64,000 nt of DNA, taken from assembly GCA_030770425.1 (NCBI GenBank), contig JASJFT010000017.1:186001-250000 (forward strand). The letters are read 5' to 3'. Below the pieces are notes generated by a model, which worked only from the letters and a program-made list of their open reading frames with translations, made no database searches and was not told where the DNA came from. The translations under genes and the position numbers were made by a program. This DNA comes from Darksidea phi. Taxonomy: Eukaryota > Ascomycota > Dothideomycetes > Pleosporales > Lentitheciaceae. Shown piece by piece: positions 1 to 62,272 of the stretch. How positions within the stretch are numbered: position 1 is the stretch's first letter; the number at the start of each line of letters is the position of its first letter.

Positions 1-1355
1 TGTTAGAATACTGCACTTTCGGTTAGCCTGTTCAGAGCGTCGGCCTCATCTCCTCATGATGTTACAACGCACATCATCGCGAATCCGTTATAGTATCCAA
101 GTGTGTTTCTTGATTCTATCAAAACGCTTGTCACTATCTGCTCATGTTAGTTCACTAAGTTTATGGAATCCGCTGACGTTCTTTTAGTGTAGATTAAAAG
201 GCAAACCGTGGTGCACCTTACCTAGGGACCTAGCGCACGATTGCGAAAAACCATTGAACTACAAACTGGGTACCCATCTAGCTTTACTATCTGCCCTTTC
301 CCCTAACATCTATCGAACCCCCGTTGTTGGTCATGTCAGATCGCTTTGCCCAACCTCGACTTGCGACAGCAGTTACAGTTCTAAGCACTAAGAGAAGATA
401 GTGAGGTCCGGCCTATAATTGCTGATCCCATTCATTCCGCATTTTCAGTGAACGGAATAAGCGAATAGCAGCTTCTTCAAGCTCGTGTCACCCAAGATAC
501 TCGGAATGTCACCGCATTTATTTCAGCCTTTATCTATCTGATAATGCCCCTCCTGCTAGCCGTACCTAACCAATATTTACCCATACCCCCAGTATATCAC
601 ACGTCTGCTGTGCGTATCCCTGTATTAAAATCGCCTCCGCGGTCAGCATGTGAACGAAGTGGTAGTGATATACAATGAATAAGCTTGATTGTATGTCTGC
701 TATGAGTGCGTGGTGTCGTTTATCCTAGGGAGAGTTCGAGATGATCTCGCCGAGTGTAGTAAGGGTGTTGCGCAAATACTAGCCGCATCACGAGGAAACG
801 TTTGGTCGCGTCGGTAGGCTATCGTGTTGTACACCGTCTCCTTCATATTCTATGCTCAAGTTGCTGATACCTAACGATTGGGGCAAGCAGTTGGATTTTG
901 CAATTTCATCGCATGTCGGAACCGAGTAATTAAAGAAATTAAAAGAGAACTTTAATAGAGTACTGGACTCATTAAGCTCATTCACTGGGAGAAGTGCAAC
1001 GTGAACCTCAGCTGTTTGCAACCTCTGTTAGATGGATAAATTTTCCTATAGAGTGGAGGACGGTATTATGTAGCAACAAATAGGCTTTTGACCACTCATG
1101 TGAGCCATACTTCCTCAGTTTATTCTATTGGCTTCAAAATATATTTATGTGCAGCCGATTGGAACAACTAACGACTCGGTTCGCCACCTTCCCTAATTAC
1201 CCCTCAAATGGTTCTGCCCCACTCCGCCCTACCCCTCAAGCTTACGTTTTAGATTACCTTTCAAACTACCATGCAAAGCCAGTTTCTCCCGGCTGGAAAA
1301 ACTAAATATGATTGATCTATGTGTTAAAAATCTTATAAATGTGAAAAACATACCA
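1..1355. other. AT-richer stretch without a recognisable gene
   Basis: No open frame here is longer than about 80 codons, and none resembles a known protein or has a plausible splice structure. The sequence looks richer in A and T than the gene-dense part that starts near 1.9 kb. I see no inverted repeat, tandem array or second RNA gene. The last 25 bases contain a TATA-like element belonging to the tRNA gene that follows. Confidence 0.5.
1334..1340 (+). promoter_or_regulatory. TATA-like element upstream of tRNA-Gly
   Basis: A TATAAAT stretch lies about 16-22 bases before the mature 5' end of the tRNA. This is a common place for an upstream element that helps TFIIIB at fungal tRNA genes. It is inferred from position and sequence only. 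Confidence 0.35.
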
Positions 1356-1488
1356 GCATCGATAGTTTAGGGGTAGAATTGAAGCTTCCCATATTTCGAT
1401 ATCTGCTTCAGGCACGGGTTCGAGTAAGTGACACGAGTAGGACTTCAATTGGAATTAGCCTAATACTTCGAAGGTCCCGTTCGATGCA
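1356..1488 (+). tRNA. tRNA-Gly (anticodon CCC) with two insertions
   Basis: This is a glycine tRNA gene reading CCC. The acceptor stem pairs 7/7 (1356-1362 with 1481-1487). The D-stem pairs 4/4 including two G-U (1365-1368 with 1376-1379), and its loop AGGGGTA has the A-box features. The anticodon stem pairs 5/5 (1381-1385 with 1405-1409), with loop bases TT, anticodon CCC at 1388-1390 and A37. The T-stem pairs 5/5 (1414-1418 with 1476-1480), and the discriminator is A1488. Two segments interrupt it: 12 bases (1392-1403) at the canonical 37/38 intron position, and 50 bases (1424-1473) inside the T-loop. Removing both leaves 71 bases, the usual tRNA-Gly length, with T-loop TTCGAGT. A T5 terminator follows. 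Perfect stems argue against an old decayed copy. Whether the T-loop insert is removed in the cell is unknown, and it splits the B-box, so transcription could also be affected. Confidence 0.75.
1424..1473 (+). other. 50-base intron-like insert in tRNA T-loop
   Basis: The insert separates T-loop bases 58 and 59. It begins GTAAGT, contains CCTAATAC (a CTAAT branch-like site about ten bases from the end) and ends AAG before G. These are the three signals of a short fungal spliceosomal intron, at the size of protein-gene introns in this window. The junction is ambiguous by one G. A short hairpin (ATTGG with CCTAAT) lies inside it. Alternatives are a second endonuclease-removed tRNA intron at an atypical place, an introner-like insertion, or a recent inactivating insertion. 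No similar segment was noticed elsewhere in the window. Confidence 0.6.
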
Positions 1489-1504: not shown

Positions 1505-1509
1505 TTTTT
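1505..1509 (+). terminator. RNA polymerase III terminator (T5)
   Basis: A run of five T begins 17 bases after the tRNA discriminator base, the expected form and distance for Pol III termination. This supports an intact transcription unit. Confidence 0.55.
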
Positions 1510-4084: not shown

Positions 4085-5699
4085 CTACTGAGGAATGCTC
4101 TTCTCCTTGAACGCAATACCATACTTGTCCGTCAGCGTCTTCATCAATGGCCTGCATAGCTCCGGGCTCATTGGTGCAAGCACACCCTTCTCGCTGATAG
4201 TTCCGTCAAGCACCTGCTGCACCGCAACCGCACAAGGCACGCCTACCAACTTAGCCATCGCCGAATACCCACCGATCTCGCCATACTCAGCTAGTGTCGA
4301 TGTACGAATCTCCTTGCTGCCATCCTTGTTTTCAATCTCGAACTTGTGCTGAAGCATGACGAAGTCACGTTCACCTTCCTCGTACTGCATCTTCTGCTCG
4401 AGCGTAGCGCAGAGTGTGTCGAGCGGGTTACCACGGGGAGTGATTTGCTCATCAGAAAAGAGACCGATCCATCGGAGGCCGTTAATGATGCGCTCTTTGT
4501 CTTCAGTGGACTTGAATTTGGTCTTGGAGCTGATGGCCCAGATGAGATCTTCTTCTTTGTCACTTGAAGCGCCGAGGACCTTGGAGGTAGCCTCCTTCCA
4601 GGTACGCTTCTCGCCTTCCTTGAGGAAGTCCTTCGGTTCATCAGAGAGGAAGCCAATGTCGACGAGGCACTTGATATACTCGGGGAAACCCTGGTATCGC
4701 AGAGTTCCGCGAACGATTGTCTGAGCTTCGGGAATGTTGTAGCGCTCCTTATAGGGGGTGGAGTCACGGTTGGGGTACGCGACGAAAGCGTAACCAGGGT
4801 AGATGAAGTACGGCTGTGCCTCAGCCATTAGTTCCGGACCCTCGATCTCAACGATCTTGCCATCCTTCCAGTACTTGGCCGCGTTCCGCAGCGCAAGCAG
4901 CACGCCGCGCGAACTCCACGAGAACTTGTATCCGAGCGGGTTGTCCGAGGCTTCGGGCGCAGGCAGACCACCGCAGTATGACTTGAAGGAGAGGATCTTG
5001 CCGCCTGCCTTGTGTACTTCGTCAATGGTAAGGACGGCGGAGAGATGATCGATTCCGGGGTCGAGACCGATCTCGTTCATAACGGTAATGCCAGCTTCTT
5101 TCGCTTGTGCGTCAAGCTCGGTCATGGCGGGGGAGACGTACGAGGTGGTTACCACGTGCTTCTTTTTGCGGATGGCAGACTTGATAACAGTTGCATGGTG
5201 GGTGTAAGGAATTAAGCTAATAACAACGTCAACCTTCTCCACTTCGGCGTCGAGGGCGGCATCGTCGTTGACATCGAGCTAGACAAGTTAGTAGTGCTGG
5301 ACGAAAACATTTGAGGAGAGCAAACATACGCTGATGGCGGAGGCATTCTTGATGCCGTTGGCTAGCTTCTGTGCGCTCTCTAATGTCCTGCAAGCTAGAG
5401 GATATCAACAGTGTCTTCTCGTCTTGGTGATCGAATAGCGTACCAACAGTGACTTTGATGCCAGAGTTTCCGAGGATCTCAGCGGTTGGTCGGGTCACGA
5501 AACCTGCACCAAGCAGAAGAACGGAGCTACATATTGATTAGTTCCTTCTGTACGGATTGTGGCATCAACGTCTGCACTCACTGGCCGGTGGTGTTGCCGC
5601 TGACATCGCCAAGAACGGACTGGAATTTGTCTGTGTCGAATTAGCATTGCGTTGAGATACGTCAACTACATAGATACACTCACTGATGACTGCCTCCAT
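4085..5699 (-). CDS. LYS9: saccharopine reductase (glutamate-forming)
   Basis: This enzyme (EC 1.5.1.10) condenses alpha-aminoadipate semialdehyde with glutamate using NADPH to form saccharopine, the penultimate step of fungal lysine synthesis. Five exons on the minus strand (5684-5699, 5582-5630, 5444-5526, 5330-5394, 4085-5278) give 468 aa, slightly longer than yeast Lys9 (446). The Rossmann motif LLGAGFV is at about residues 26-32. Downstream are family signatures VDVVISLIPYTHH, MNEIGLDPGIDH, SYCGGLPAPEASDNPLGYKF and ITPRGNPLDTLCA. The first four exons are tiny; junctions were fixed by keeping the conserved CRTLESAQKLA and LDVNDDAALDA segments in frame. The first about 20 residues precede the Rossmann strand and are less certain. 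It is divergent from SEC15 across 372 bases. Confidence 0.95.
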
Positions 5700-6071: not shown

Positions 6072-8559
6072 ATGCCTTCCGCCACGGATTACAGGGACGA
6101 GTTGTGGATCGCCATCAAACAAGTATATCACCAACATCCTCAACAATACCGTATATTATTACTAACCGCAGGCCAGATATCACAGTCAACCTCGGATCAA
6201 GACTACATCGAGCAATTAGTCCCCGTTATGAAAGATGCGCGGTACACCAATCAGCTCCTCCAAGCCTTCGACCAGTTCTCCACCGACAAAGAATCAGAAA
6301 TAGAACGAATATGCAGCGCCAACCACCAGGAATTCGTCAGCTCCGTCAACTCCCTTTTACAAGTTCGCCAAGGAACCGTTGACATGACGGACGAGATCCT
6401 GTCTCTCAATGCATCGATCCAGGAGAGCATCGACAGGCTCGCGGCGCAGAAGAAGGCTCTCGTTGACTCGCGTGGTGTGCGCCAGAATATTAATGAAGCG
6501 AATCAGGCGCTGAATGCGTGTTTGGACGTGCTGAGAATCGCGAATCAGGTGTATGATCTACTAAAAGAGAAGAACTATTATGCGGGTTTGCGCTCACTGG
6601 ACGAGCTGCAGACCATCCATCTCAAAAGCATCAGTCGATACAAAATCGCAGAATGGATCGATAAGAATGTACCTGCGATTAGGGAGCAGATCCGTGATGC
6701 TGTCAAGTCAGACCTGAGCATGTGGCTTTACAGGATCCGCGAGTCGTCGCAGTTCTTGGGCGAGGTCTCATTCTACGGCACCGAAGTACGCCGGACGAGG
6801 AACCAAGAGCGCGGCGAAGCGGACGCGCGCTTTAGCAAGTTCAAGCTAAACTCCGCAATCGAACTCGTAGCGGACGAAACCGATGAATTCGACGTCCTAA
6901 ACTACGAAGAAGCAGCCATCGAGACCGACTTCACGCCCTTGTTCGAGGCCATGCACATCTATGACACCCTAGGCAAGAGAGAGCAGTTCAAAGAGGAGTA
7001 CACAAAAGACCGGAAGGAACAGGCAAGCTTGACAATGCCCCAGAGCCTGAGGCTGCTCGACGAGGACTGTGGGGATTTGAGCAGTTTGTTGGAAAGCATT
7101 GCAGGCTTTTCAATTATTGAGAAGGCTACGCAGGCGAAAACCACCAATCTACGAACACAGGCAGATGTTGATGAGCTTTGGGATACTATGTGCGCCAAAG
7201 CTATCGAGCTTATTACGGTTGCTCTACCCACTGTCGACAACGACGAGCTACTTCTGAAGATTAAGGGCCGGATAGCTCTTTTCATGCTGACGATGGAGGT
7301 TTGTACCCTCCGAGCAAGTGACTTATTCCAAGCTGATTCGTGTCCAGAAATGGGGGTATAACGTCTCAGCCATGAAGGATCTTCTCCTCACCCTCTTTAC
7401 CAAGTACTCAGAGCTCCTCAAACAACGTTTCAGCGACGACTTCCAAGAGATCGTCACAACAGACGATTACATGCCTATGCCCATCAACAGCATCGAAGAA
7501 TACGACAAAGTCGTAACCGTCAGCTGGTACACACCCGACAAAGACCGAGAAGAACTGACGTATGTCCTCGCCTCTTCCCTCTCCGAACACAACAGATGAC
7601 TAACCGAGTCCCACAGCTTCCCATGTGTTCTTCCCTTCTCCCAAATGTACCCCCTTTGCTGCATCGACATCCGCAACTTCCTCAACCAAATCTATCTCTT
7701 CAGCGATGACTACTTCCAGAAATCCACAATCATAGACTCTACTTTGCGCGCCTCGCTCGATGATCTGCTCTGCCAAAATGTCTGCCAATCCCTGCTCGAC
7801 CGCCTCTCCTCGCAATATCCAGGCCAGATCGTTCAGATCCTGACGAACCTCGAACATTTCGAAACAGCTTGCTCAGAACTGCAATCTTTGCTGTTCGAAG
7901 CGCGGAGCTCCCCCTCTGCTCCAGGGCCCGTTGTCCTCGCTGCTACAGAGAAGTTCAAAGCAGCGAAGAAAACAGCGTCTGACCGGATCTTCGAACTAGT
8001 CAATTCCAAGATTGACGATCTAATCGAACTAGCAGAATACGACTGGATGTCCACTAAACCGCCCATGTCCGCCGAACCGAGCGAATACATGGGCGAATTA
8101 ACGCGTTACCTCTCCAATATAATGTCTTCGGTGCTCCTCGCCCTCCCAACCGAGATAAAAGAATTCATCTACTTCGACGCTCTCTCCCACGCCACCACAG
8201 CTATTCTCAACCTCCCGCTTGACGACAGCGTTCGTCGCATTACGCCGTCTGCCGTGAAAACTCTTGCGAATGACACTCGCTATCTGGCTGCTTTTGTGGA
8301 GGGCTTGGGCAATCCTATTTTAATGGAGAACTTGGACGAGTTGACGCAGACGGTGGCGCTAATGGGGACAGAGAATAGTGATGAATTTTACGATATGACT
8401 CTGAGGAATAAGAAGTATAGTCGAGTGGATAATATGAAGGGCGCCATACTGTTGGAGAAAGTGGCAGAGGGGGCCCAGGTGCAGGCGCAGAGTCCGGCAA
8501 AGCCAGTGGAGAGAGAGAGGTTTGGAACCTTAGGGAGTCGGTTTGGGCTGGGGCGGTAG
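6072..8559 (+). CDS. SEC15: exocyst complex component Sec15
   Basis: Sec15 is the exocyst subunit that binds the Rab GTPase Sec4 on secretory vesicles and helps tether them to the plasma membrane at growth sites, such as the hyphal tip. Exons 6072-7298, 7348-7559 and 7617-8559 give 793 aa. The N-terminal part (about residues 85-210) is a long helical, coiled-coil-like region. The middle and C-terminal parts match the Sec15 family, including WGYNVSAMKDLLLTLFTKYS, FSDDFQEIV, DDYMPMPINS, FPFSQMYPLC-like and IRNFLNQIYLFSDDYF segments. Intron donors are GTTTGT and GTATGT; the second acceptor restores TFPCVLPFSQ. It converges on RAI1 188 bases away. Assignment is firm. Confidence 0.93.
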
Positions 8560-59488: not shown

Positions 59489-62272
59489 ATGCAACCACCG
59501 CCCACGATCAAGCAGCCCTCCGAGTCGGACATACCCGGCATCTACACGTCCGAGAATGTGACGCTGGACGTGCCCGTCGAGGACCACGACGGCCGCCCGC
59601 CGCCGGTGAAGTACAGGTACGCAAGCCCGCGGCCCTCGTCGCTACCCCGCCGCGATGCTTAGTCGGTGCCTCAAGTTCCCTACCCGCATACCACTCCCCG
59701 CTGCGACACCACAAGCGAGCAGCGTCCTCGACCAGACGAGTCAAGGTTCGGACTGTCCTCAAACCTCAGTGAGACTGCCACAGCCTTACGCGGCACAGGA
59801 AACGCTCAATGCGCGGTCCGAGTACAGCAACAGCGAAGATGACGGCACCGCACAACACCGCATCAACCAGTATCTCATCAAGCAAGAAATCGGCCGGGGA
59901 TCTTTTGGAGCAGTCCATCTTGCCGTTGACCAGTATGGCCAAGAATATGTGAGGAACCAACCCGCGACTCCAGCTATGGCAGCGACTACCACGATGCGGG
60001 TGACCTACGAAACTGGTGGCATTGGCTCTCGCTGACCGCTGCGATGCAGGCCGTGAAGGAATTTTCAAAGTCCCGCCTGCGCAAACGCGCTCAGTCGAAC
60101 CTTCTGCGCCGACCGAGCGCGCGACGGCGACGCCAAGGTGCGCTGGCAGCCGGCCTGGGATTCAACTCCCCGCTTCATCGCCATTCGTCTACGGAAGAGA
60201 ACAATTCGCTCGACTTAATAAAGGAGGAGATTGCCATCATGAAGAAGCTCAACCATCCCAACCTCGTGACATTGATCGAAGTGCTTGATGACCCAGAAGA
60301 AGACTCGCTGTACATGGTCATGGAAATGTGCAAGAAGGGTGTCGTGATGCAGGTCGGTCTCGAGGAGCGTGCCGATCCGTACCCGGAAGAGCAGTGTCGG
60401 TGCTGGTTTCGAGACATGATATTAGGCCTTGAGTATCGTATGTTGCTCGGATAAGCTCTGAGGGACCCACTAATGCGTGCCTAGTCCACGCCCAGGGGAT
60501 CATCCATCGGGACATCAAACCAGACAACTGCTTGGTCACGGATGACGATGTCTTGAAGATCGTCGACTTTGGCGTATCGGAGATGTTTGACAAGCAAGGC
60601 CAGATGAAGACTGCCAAGTCAGCCGGTTCACCAGCTTTCATGCCGCCAGAACTATGTGTCGCCAAACACGGAGAGGTCGATGGTAGGGCTGTCGATATTT
60701 GGTCAATGGGTGTCACGCTCTACTGCCTGCTGTTCGGCAGGATACCGTTCGAAAAGCACGGCATGATCGAACTGTACCAGGCGATACGGATGGACAACCC
60801 CGAGTACGACGACTGCAATGCGGACCTCCGTGACCTACTCGCTCAACTGTTAGAGAAAGACCCACAGAAGAGGATTAACATGGATGGAATACGCGCAAGT
60901 CCTGCTACAGCGATTTCTGTTCGGCACTAACATTCGTAGGAACATCCTTGGGTAACGAGACAAGGCACAGATCCGCTTTTACCCGCGTCGGAGAACGTCG
61001 CTATTTTAGTCGAACCACCTACCGATGAGGAAGTGAATGCTGCTATTACCGGCAATATGGGACATTTGGTAACGGTCGTAAGTGCAGCTGTCTTTTTATC
61101 AGTGGTGGCATTCTCAGCATTCTCCCGATGATAGACCATCACTACCCCAATTCATCTGTACAAGACGTTCCCGTGTACCCCGAAAACCAGGCTGCTTACC
61201 GGGTTTCCAGGTACGAGCAGTGAAGCGTTTCAAACAGCTTCTTTTCAGAAGGAGGCCGGAACGACTAGAGGGAATATTAGGAAGCGCCTCGCGCATCGTT
61301 CAGCCTCCCCTATCCATACGGCCTTCAGGACTTCGGAAATCAAAATCGCAAGACACTGACGACCGGCGACCCCTAGAGGGTGCTCTCACAACCGAAGGGG
61401 TCCACCGCGACATCGAGATTGACAACAATGCCCATCGTGTTCCTCAACACATGGATGAAATGGCCCATCACAAACCTGGTCTCCGTACCGCTATTGCGGG
61501 AAACAAGTCTCCTAGAAAAGGGGCAGGGACCCACAGCCCGCTCTCTCCACAGCCTGTCTCCACGATAGATGCTAAGGTCATCCACGAAAGCATGTCCTAT
61601 CGACCTCCGGTCACAAAGCCTATTGCTATTCCCTCCACAGCAACATCCTCAGCCCCAACCACACCCCTCGGCAAAGGTCACGCGCATGATCCTCTGGAAG
61701 ACACACTCTTCCTCAACATCGGCACCGGCGAAGACTGGGCTCCTTCGGCCGAGGACAGCAATTGCGTCGTGTCCGAATCGCCCGGTGCCGTCGACATCAA
61801 TGTCTACGAAACCGCGTACCGCGAAGAAGTCGACCGCATCGTCAAACGCCGCGAAGGCGGGACGCCTGGCCGCCCCACGCTCTACCTCACGCGACGTGTG
61901 GAGAACATCAAATCCCTTGTCCGCGATCATGACCACGACCTCATCTTCGACCACGGCAAGTCCCCTACCGAAGTCAAGCAAGATGTCAAAGGCGGGTTCA
62001 AGAGCTTCGTGGAAAAGGCGAAGAAGGAGATTGAAGCGCGCGGGGAGTTGCAGAAACTGACCGAGGGAAAGGAGGGCAAGCTCAGTAGGATTACGCGGAA
62101 CGTGAGAGAGAAGAAGCGGTTAGTGGAGGAGGAGAGGGAGATCATCAGGCGCGAAGATCGGGAGCGCGAACGGGAGAGGGTGGCGGTGAAGGAGAGGAGT
62201 CGGAGCTCGACGCCTGTGGCTGGAATAAGGGGGTCGAGCCGCAGTGCGACACCAGTGACGGTGGACAAGTAG
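59489..62272 (+). CDS. CaMKK/Sak1-type protein kinase
   Basis: This is a fungal calcium/calmodulin-dependent kinase kinase, related to Aspergillus CmkC, S. pombe Ssp1 and yeast Sak1, which activate SNF1/AMPK-type or CaM kinases. Seven exons (59489-59616, 59676-59745, 59799-59948, 60050-60437, 60485-60894, 60940-61077, 61211-62272) encode 781 aa. Kinase domain: GRGSFG 98-103, AVKEF with K119, HRDIKPDN 253-260, DFG 273-275, and SAGSPAFMPPE in the activation segment. A basic Arg/Pro insert after the ATP lysine is typical of CaMKKs. The fifth intron starts GCAAGT, a GC-AG intron, and its use restores GIREHPWVTRQG. The last intron is 133 bases, the least certain junction. The C-terminal 350 residues are Ser/Pro- then Arg/Glu-rich. 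Confidence 0.9.

Follow-up and report, generated by a model that had tools for sequence, protein, structure and literature searches.

Introns in U6, which is a Pol III gene, are known in other fungi, and one paper is said to deal with their repeated gain. The U3 snoRNA has also been described as Pol III-transcribed. Introner-like elements multiply as similar copies. Nuclear tRNA introns are situated at position 37/38, with red algae and nucleomorphs as exceptions in the parts of the literature drawn upon here (PMC3978253, PMC4090602). Among the matches listed in our literature searches, which covered titles and the start of abstracts, none describes a tRNA gene with a spliceosomal intron. Here we report on a tRNA-Gly(CCC) gene of Darksidea phi located in a stretch of 64,000 nucleotides (the window, i.e. 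all DNA analyzed at this locus). Its T-loop contains an insert that is very probably a U2-type spliceosomal intron in a working Pol III-type tRNA gene, and one of a genome-wide set. The features are provided in Table 1; position numbers within the tRNAs are our own reading of the arms.

Table 1. Features of the tRNA-Gly(CCC) gene, mRNA introns of the window, and insert sites of the interrupted tRNA genes (locations are window positions unless a contig is given).
Feature	Location	Strand	Insert site	Signals or length	Basis
TATA-like element TTATAAAT, upstream of tRNA-Gly(CCC)	1333..1340	+			putative promoter motif
5' exon of tRNA-Gly(CCC): acceptor 5' strand, D-arm, anticodon arm up to base 37	1356..1391	+			
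A-box-like TAGTTTAGGGG in 5' exon	1363-1373	+			by eye, against the A-box consensus
Anticodon CCC	1388-1390	+			
Canonical tRNA intron	1392..1403	+	37/38	12 bases	
Middle exon: base 38, anticodon 3' strand, variable loop, T-stem 5' strand, T-loop up to A58	1404..1423	+			
B-box heptamer in middle exon	1417-1423	+		GGTTCGA	
Spliceosomal-type intron	1424..1473	+	58/59	50 bases	
5' splice site of 50-base insert	1424-1429	+		GTAAGT	
Branch of 50-base insert	1460-1464	+		CTAAT, A at 1463	
3' AG of 50-base insert	1472-1473	+		AG	
3' exon: T-loop end, T-stem 3' strand, acceptor 3' strand, discriminator	1474..1488	+			
Pol III-type terminator, 17 bases past tRNA-Gly(CCC)	1505..1509	+		TTTTT	
mRNA intron, Sec15 gene	7299..7347	+		49 bases	homologous proteins
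mRNA intron, Sec15 gene	7560..7616	+		57 bases	homologous proteins
mRNA intron, saccharopine dehydrogenase gene	5279..5329	-		51 bases	homologous proteins
mRNA intron, saccharopine dehydrogenase gene	5395..5443	-		49 bases	homologous proteins
mRNA intron, protein-kinase gene	60438..60484	+		47 bases	kinase motif rather than an alignment
Gly-CCC	window		58/59		
Second Gly-CCC	C11		58/59		excision scan
Pro-CGG			58/59		excision scan
Ala-AGC	C132		58/59		excision scan; locus from similarity search
Ala-AGC	C79		52/53	GTAAGC...TACTAAC...TTAG	Rfam search
Glu-CTC (two genes)			52/53		excision scan
Gln-TTG			53/54	GTATGT...TACTAAC...AAG	Rfam search
His	C16		53/54	66 bases	excision scan
Initiator Met (L056)	G000:C312:8199-8556		54/55	GTGAGT...GCTAAT...TAG	Rfam search
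Lys-TTT			28/29	GTAAGT...TTTAAC...TATAG	Rfam search
Gly-GCC			60/61		excision scan

The first-pass annotation had read positions 1356-1488 as a tRNA-Gly(CCC) with paired stems, and both ARAGORN on the excised form and direct reading agree with it. After removal of bases 1424-1473, ARAGORN calls a tRNA-Gly(ccc) of 83 bases with 7 acceptor pairs, 4 D-stem pairs (two of them G-U) and 5 T-stem pairs. Running a tRNA finder with and without these bases had been proposed as a check, and the call is indeed obtained only after excision: uncut, the gene gives neither an ARAGORN call nor an Rfam match at the gathering threshold in the window, and it is absent from the results of the genome-wide tRNA search. 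The 37/38 intron, likewise claimed before, was placed by direct reading; ARAGORN left it unplaced and drew the anticodon arm differently. The anticodon stem GAAGC/GCTTC forms 5 Watson-Crick pairs, loop and intron together measure 19 bases, and removing bases 1392-1403 as well gives a mature length of 71. The claimed boundaries of the T-loop insert, with its GTAAGT, CTAAT and terminal AG, are borne out, and so is the claim that its exact removal restores the tRNA: only one product among 2,665 excisions (40-80 bases) of the window gene is perfect, defined as 7 acceptor pairs, 5 T-stem pairs and a 7-base T-loop. This product has three equivalent placements, one of which reads GT...AG.

The insert lies at 58/59, and a separate intron occupies 37/38, the usual position in the nuclear tRNA genes of eukaryotes. 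After excision the arms are intact, an A-box is present (by eye, against what we take to be the A-box consensus), a terminator follows, and TTATAAAT is presumably a TATA-like promoter motif. An earlier suggestion that the insert splits the B-box holds in part: the heptamer GGTTCGA is contiguous, but the final two of the 11 consensus bases are shifted away from it. Within the window the insert sequence occurs once. Queried against the genome (an assembly of 51.35 Mb in 477 contigs), the whole gene matches its own locus only, with no second copy of the insert, for which a search had been recommended; near-identical copies as expected of an introner-like element are absent, the insert query matching only itself. 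The joined exons, including 4 bases of the 37/38 intron, also match only their own locus. As to the host, the saccharopine dehydrogenase piece of the window has its best named match in Trematosphaeria pertusa, with 93% identity; Periconia, Massarina and others come next, and all of these belong to the Pleosporales (Dothideomycetes).

Across the genome we resolved 12 tRNA genes with a GT-AG insert, the window gene and 11 others, with inserts of 49-66 bases (Table 1). Two more Gly-GCC genes, seen from the 5' side only, share the break point of the resolved one. In 11 of the 12 genes the insert is located at T-arm positions 52 to 61, and in one at 28/29. Eight genes, the window's included, have a further intron at or near 37/38; the other four are without a 37/38 intron. 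By our own reading, with repeat-like and decayed copies excluded, 31 or 32 nuclear tRNA genes have no such insert, so that about 14 of the 45 or 46 genes found are interrupted, counts that are lower bounds as the searches are heuristic. Two ARAGORN names were mended by hand from the anticodon loop: Pro (called Ser) and the Ala on C79 (called Arg).

The glycine genes stand out. A search for further tRNA-Gly(CCC) genes, as suggested previously, yielded one more, and both of the two found are interrupted at 58/59. The spliced Gly-GCC query finds three genes, each match stopping at the junction (query base 58), and in the pattern search GTAAGT or GTGAGT comes directly after GGTTCGATT at the three places. 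If a decayed Gly-GCC-like copy is set aside, the heuristic searches made found no uninterrupted Gly-CCC or Gly-GCC gene, though an intact one may have been missed. Human and yeast probes gave no matches in the genome; the probe search yielded 6 matches at 3 loci, all from 3 probes of the genome itself. Empty sites also speak for introns: for initiator Met an intron-free paralogue (L009) is identical to the joined exons of L056, and of the Ala-AGC genes one lacks a T-arm insert while two have inserts at different positions, which therefore probably represent two gains.

Several other tRNA-like loci were noted. A His-GTG gene (L022, G000:C434:323432-323502) has no insert, unlike the other His gene, on C16. 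The nuclear tRNAs read did not include Phe, Tyr, Trp, Val, elongator Met and some further isoacceptors, whose genes may be interrupted as well or may have been missed. Long introns near 37/38 are placed by ARAGORN in Lys-CTT and Ala-CGC genes (L029 and L037, 35 bases; L048, 31 bases). Two tRNA copies look decayed and are not called by ARAGORN (L026, G000:C51:47971-48038; L051, G000:C119:9624-9693), and a Gly-GCC-like interrupted locus (L058, G000:C29:73791-73885) has a partly duplicated 3' end, a decayed look and no clean excision. A tRNA-like 94-base family (GGAGGGATGGTCGAGTGG...) has 13 matches, for instance G000:C425:82584-82677 (L055, L080); two of them lie at the very start of a contig (C136:1, C321:1), and the family is perhaps a tRNA-derived repeat. 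The sequence GGTTCGAGGTAGGT, perhaps also a repeat, occurs at eight places (G000:C69:24565, C92:7596, C137:65767, C165:12979, C174:38802, C270:18954 and 19042, C435:32908).

How the genes were found matters for reading their signals. The Rfam tRNA search of the genome, in which 63 of 1,735 candidates were scored, gave 57 matches, many of them on the mitochondrial-looking contigs C304 and C417. In the excision scan each GT..AG stretch was removed and ARAGORN was run on the joined flanks, at loci taken from pattern and similarity searches. The pattern CTAAY..AGGTTCRANNC gave 18 matches, all scanned, with three tRNAs (one already known). For CTAAY..AGTTCGANNC there were 23 matches: 13 were examined and yielded one new gene (His), one was known, two lie on the mitochondrial-looking C304 and seven were left unexamined. 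Pattern GGTTCRAGTRNGT matched 29 times (two known, two new genes among 21 others examined, six unexamined), and CTGAY..TTCGANNC 83 times, with no tRNA gene among the 20 examined. Finally, GGTTCGAN{1,2}GTRNGT gave 30 matches: two examined with one new gene, two explained by the Gly-GCC similarity search, and 26 unexamined. Both Glu genes and His came from the CTAAY patterns, the Gly-CCC on C11 and Pro from GTRNGT, and Gly-GCC from GTRNGT placed one to two bases on. Since these six genes were found with splice- or branch-motif patterns, their signals are partly selected; the window gene, too, was chosen in the first pass partly for its splice signals. No splice-site criterion was involved for Gln, Ala on C79, initiator Met and Lys (Rfam) or Ala on C132 (similarity), and all five show both signals. 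Among the six genes found without T-arm-aimed patterns, the window's included, five have their insert in the T-arm.

Each of the 12 inserts opens with GTRNG, the next base being T or C, and carries a YTRAY motif in which the A is 9-13 bases away from the end. The five mRNA introns of the window measure 47-57 bases and have their branch A at 9-13 bases from the end in every case; four start with GTRNG and one with GTTTG. One of them was placed with what we presume to be a kinase motif. An early in-frame stretch of the Sec15 gene was not counted as an intron because its removal would shift the frame. The length of the window insert falls within the range of the mRNA introns, and so do those of the set except for two longer inserts (63 and 66 bases). 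Splice and branch sites of the inserts resemble those of the host mRNA introns, bearing in mind the selection in six genes, as expected of U2-type introns.

Removal of the inserts is also exact. The test covers the 11 T-arm genes; Lys, with its whole T-arm, lies outside its reach. In 10 of the 11, excision at GT-AG yields a perfect acceptor/T-arm product. No other excision does so in two of these genes (window and initiator Met); the remaining eight have two to four such products, the GT-AG one included. The eleventh, Gly-CCC on C11, falls short by one acceptor mismatch. As a control, excisions bounded by other letters were run through ARAGORN at 126 of 154 loci (152,348 bases; left out were 18 on mitochondrial-looking contigs and 10 duplicates). 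GT/AG succeeded at nine loci, against four for TG/GA, four for CA/TC, three for GA/TG and six for AG/GT. Almost all control-letter matches occur at the same interrupted loci, with L069 as the only one outside those discussed here, and because the scan drops loci overlapping direct ARAGORN calls some true genes are absent from it. The ARAGORN-only excision test is looser than the perfect-product test.

Promoter and terminator were compared on the unspliced DNA. Against GGTTCGANNCC, which we take to be the 11-base B-box consensus, the 52/53 genes and Lys match at 11 of 11 bases and the 53/54 genes at 10. The 58/59 and 60/61 genes match at 9 or 10, and this loss of one or two bases counts against a working Pol III-type gene with a spliceosomal intron. 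For Pro the best unspliced stretch lies elsewhere (9 of 11), and its own junction GGTTCGAGTAA also scores 9. The best unspliced match of initiator Met (L056) sits within the intron: TGTTCGATTCC. A T-run starts at most 17 bases downstream in all 12 genes; such a run is within reach of 3.6% of window positions, and of 9% of sampled places at the fetched loci, where the reach was slightly longer. Promoter match and T-run fit continuing Pol III transcription. The mostly readable internal promoter may explain why the T-arm is the favoured site, although the pattern searches were also aimed at the T-arm.

Alternatively, the tRNA-splicing endonuclease might cut the inserts, which would then be ectopic tRNA introns like those of Cyanidioschyzon merolae, nucleomorphs and Crenarchaeota, with the splice-like letters a coincidence. 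T-arm introns of the endonuclease kind are described for those groups in the parts of PMC4090602 and PMC3978253 used here, and the frequent second intron at or near 37/38 (8 of 12 genes) is in keeping with this idea. Nonetheless, at all equivalent cuts of all 12 genes at most three of the four central pairs of a bulge-helix-bulge are formed, so the motif in its strict form is absent, and the endonuclease model offers no reason why every one of the 12 genes should have GTRNG, a branch site and the spacing seen. We consider this explanation very unlikely. An artefact of assembly or sequencing is the least credible of all and can practically be dismissed: the inserts are known from one assembly, but the 14 loci are spread over 12 contigs, and the 12 insert sequences known all differ and sit at functional boundaries.

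Somewhat less improbable, yet still unlikely, is that the genes are disrupted copies in which mobile or introner-like insertions recently inactivated the tRNA. Insert-free paralogues of initiator Met and Ala-AGC would agree with this, as would the decayed copies L026, L051 and L058. The insert of the window gene, however, has no repeat in the genome, and no two of the 12 inserts exceed 63% identity. Pairing of the acceptor and T-stems is preserved, except for a single mismatch in one of the 12 genes, and the three Gly-GCC genes detected by similarity share one site of interruption. Furthermore, splice signals are kept between the two Glu-CTC genes despite diverged introns: the second exons are identical, the introns 62% alike, as against a mean of 51% and a maximum of 59% in 500 shuffles, and the 100-base flanks 58% and 49% alike. 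The very recent inactivation by an introner-like insertion considered in the first-pass annotation is not supported in view of these data, the shared anatomy of the 12 genes and the glycine genes, for which the searches made found no uninterrupted copy. The unusual processing route offered beside it gains support from the recurrence of the same anatomy throughout the genome, with splicing as the presumed step. The underlying observation is confirmed as real and its interpretation partly supported. One further result speaks against reading the inserts as spliceosomal introns: the U6 gene of the same genome gives a full-length match and has no intron.

Taking the inserts as spliceosomal introns, the precursor would be transcribed by Pol III from the internal promoter and end at the T-run. 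The spliceosome would remove the T-arm intron in the nucleus and so restore the T-loop; end processing would come next, and the 37/38 intron, in the eight genes that have one, would be left to the tRNA endonuclease and ligase. A tRNA with both introns would pass two splicing machineries. In yeast the tRNA endonuclease acts outside the nucleus, so the spliceosome would act first. From the sequence features we infer Pol III transcription, spliceosomal splicing, the order of the steps and the function of the product, and together they suggest that the mRNA splicing machinery is needed for making some tRNAs of Darksidea phi. Likely, though less firmly held than the reading of the window insert, is a wider picture for this fungal lineage, in which a considerable share of its nuclear tRNAs relies on the spliceosome, introns entered presumably about 10 or more times, mostly at T-arm sites, and glycine codons need the mRNA splicing machinery. 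As no uninterrupted Gly-GCC or Gly-CCC gene was found, translation of glycine codons would require this machinery to act on Pol III transcripts.

If true, the mRNA splicing machinery acts ahead of the tRNA endonuclease wherever a 37/38 intron is also present, and a set of tRNAs dependent on the spliceosome breaks the rule of nuclear tRNA introns at 37/38 with a dedicated endonuclease. It also makes it testable whether the spliceosome can act on Pol III transcripts other than U6 and U3, and bears on intron gain outside mRNA and on isoacceptors overlooked by standard tRNA finders. The interrupted tRNA genes are real, recurrent and, as far as literature searches go, undescribed, in agreement with the first-pass statement on T-loop inserts with messenger-type signals.

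Compared with known systems, the present set shares with the introns of fungal U6 snRNA and U3 snoRNA that spliceosomal introns occur inside small structured RNAs, whereas here the hosts are tRNA genes and U6 is intron-free. The ectopic introns of C. merolae, nucleomorphs and Crenarchaeota are similar in their T-arm and anticodon-stem sites and in hiding tRNAs from ordinary finders. However, in the portions of PMC3978253 and PMC4090602 relied on here, the introns of G. theta measure 3-24 bases against 49-66 in the present genes, and archaeal ectopic introns have a bulge-helix-bulge and are cut by the tRNA endonuclease, in contrast to the GT-AG ends, branch signals and lack of a strict bulge-helix-bulge seen here. 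Introner-like elements of Dothideomycetes, as treated in the main text of PMC4457414, where a term search finds no word beginning with tRNA, also represent spliceosomal intron gain in the same fungal class, but the present inserts share no clear sequence. Canonical nuclear introns, finally, are present at or near 37/38 in most of the same genes, and from these the T-arm inserts differ in position, signals and presumed enzyme.
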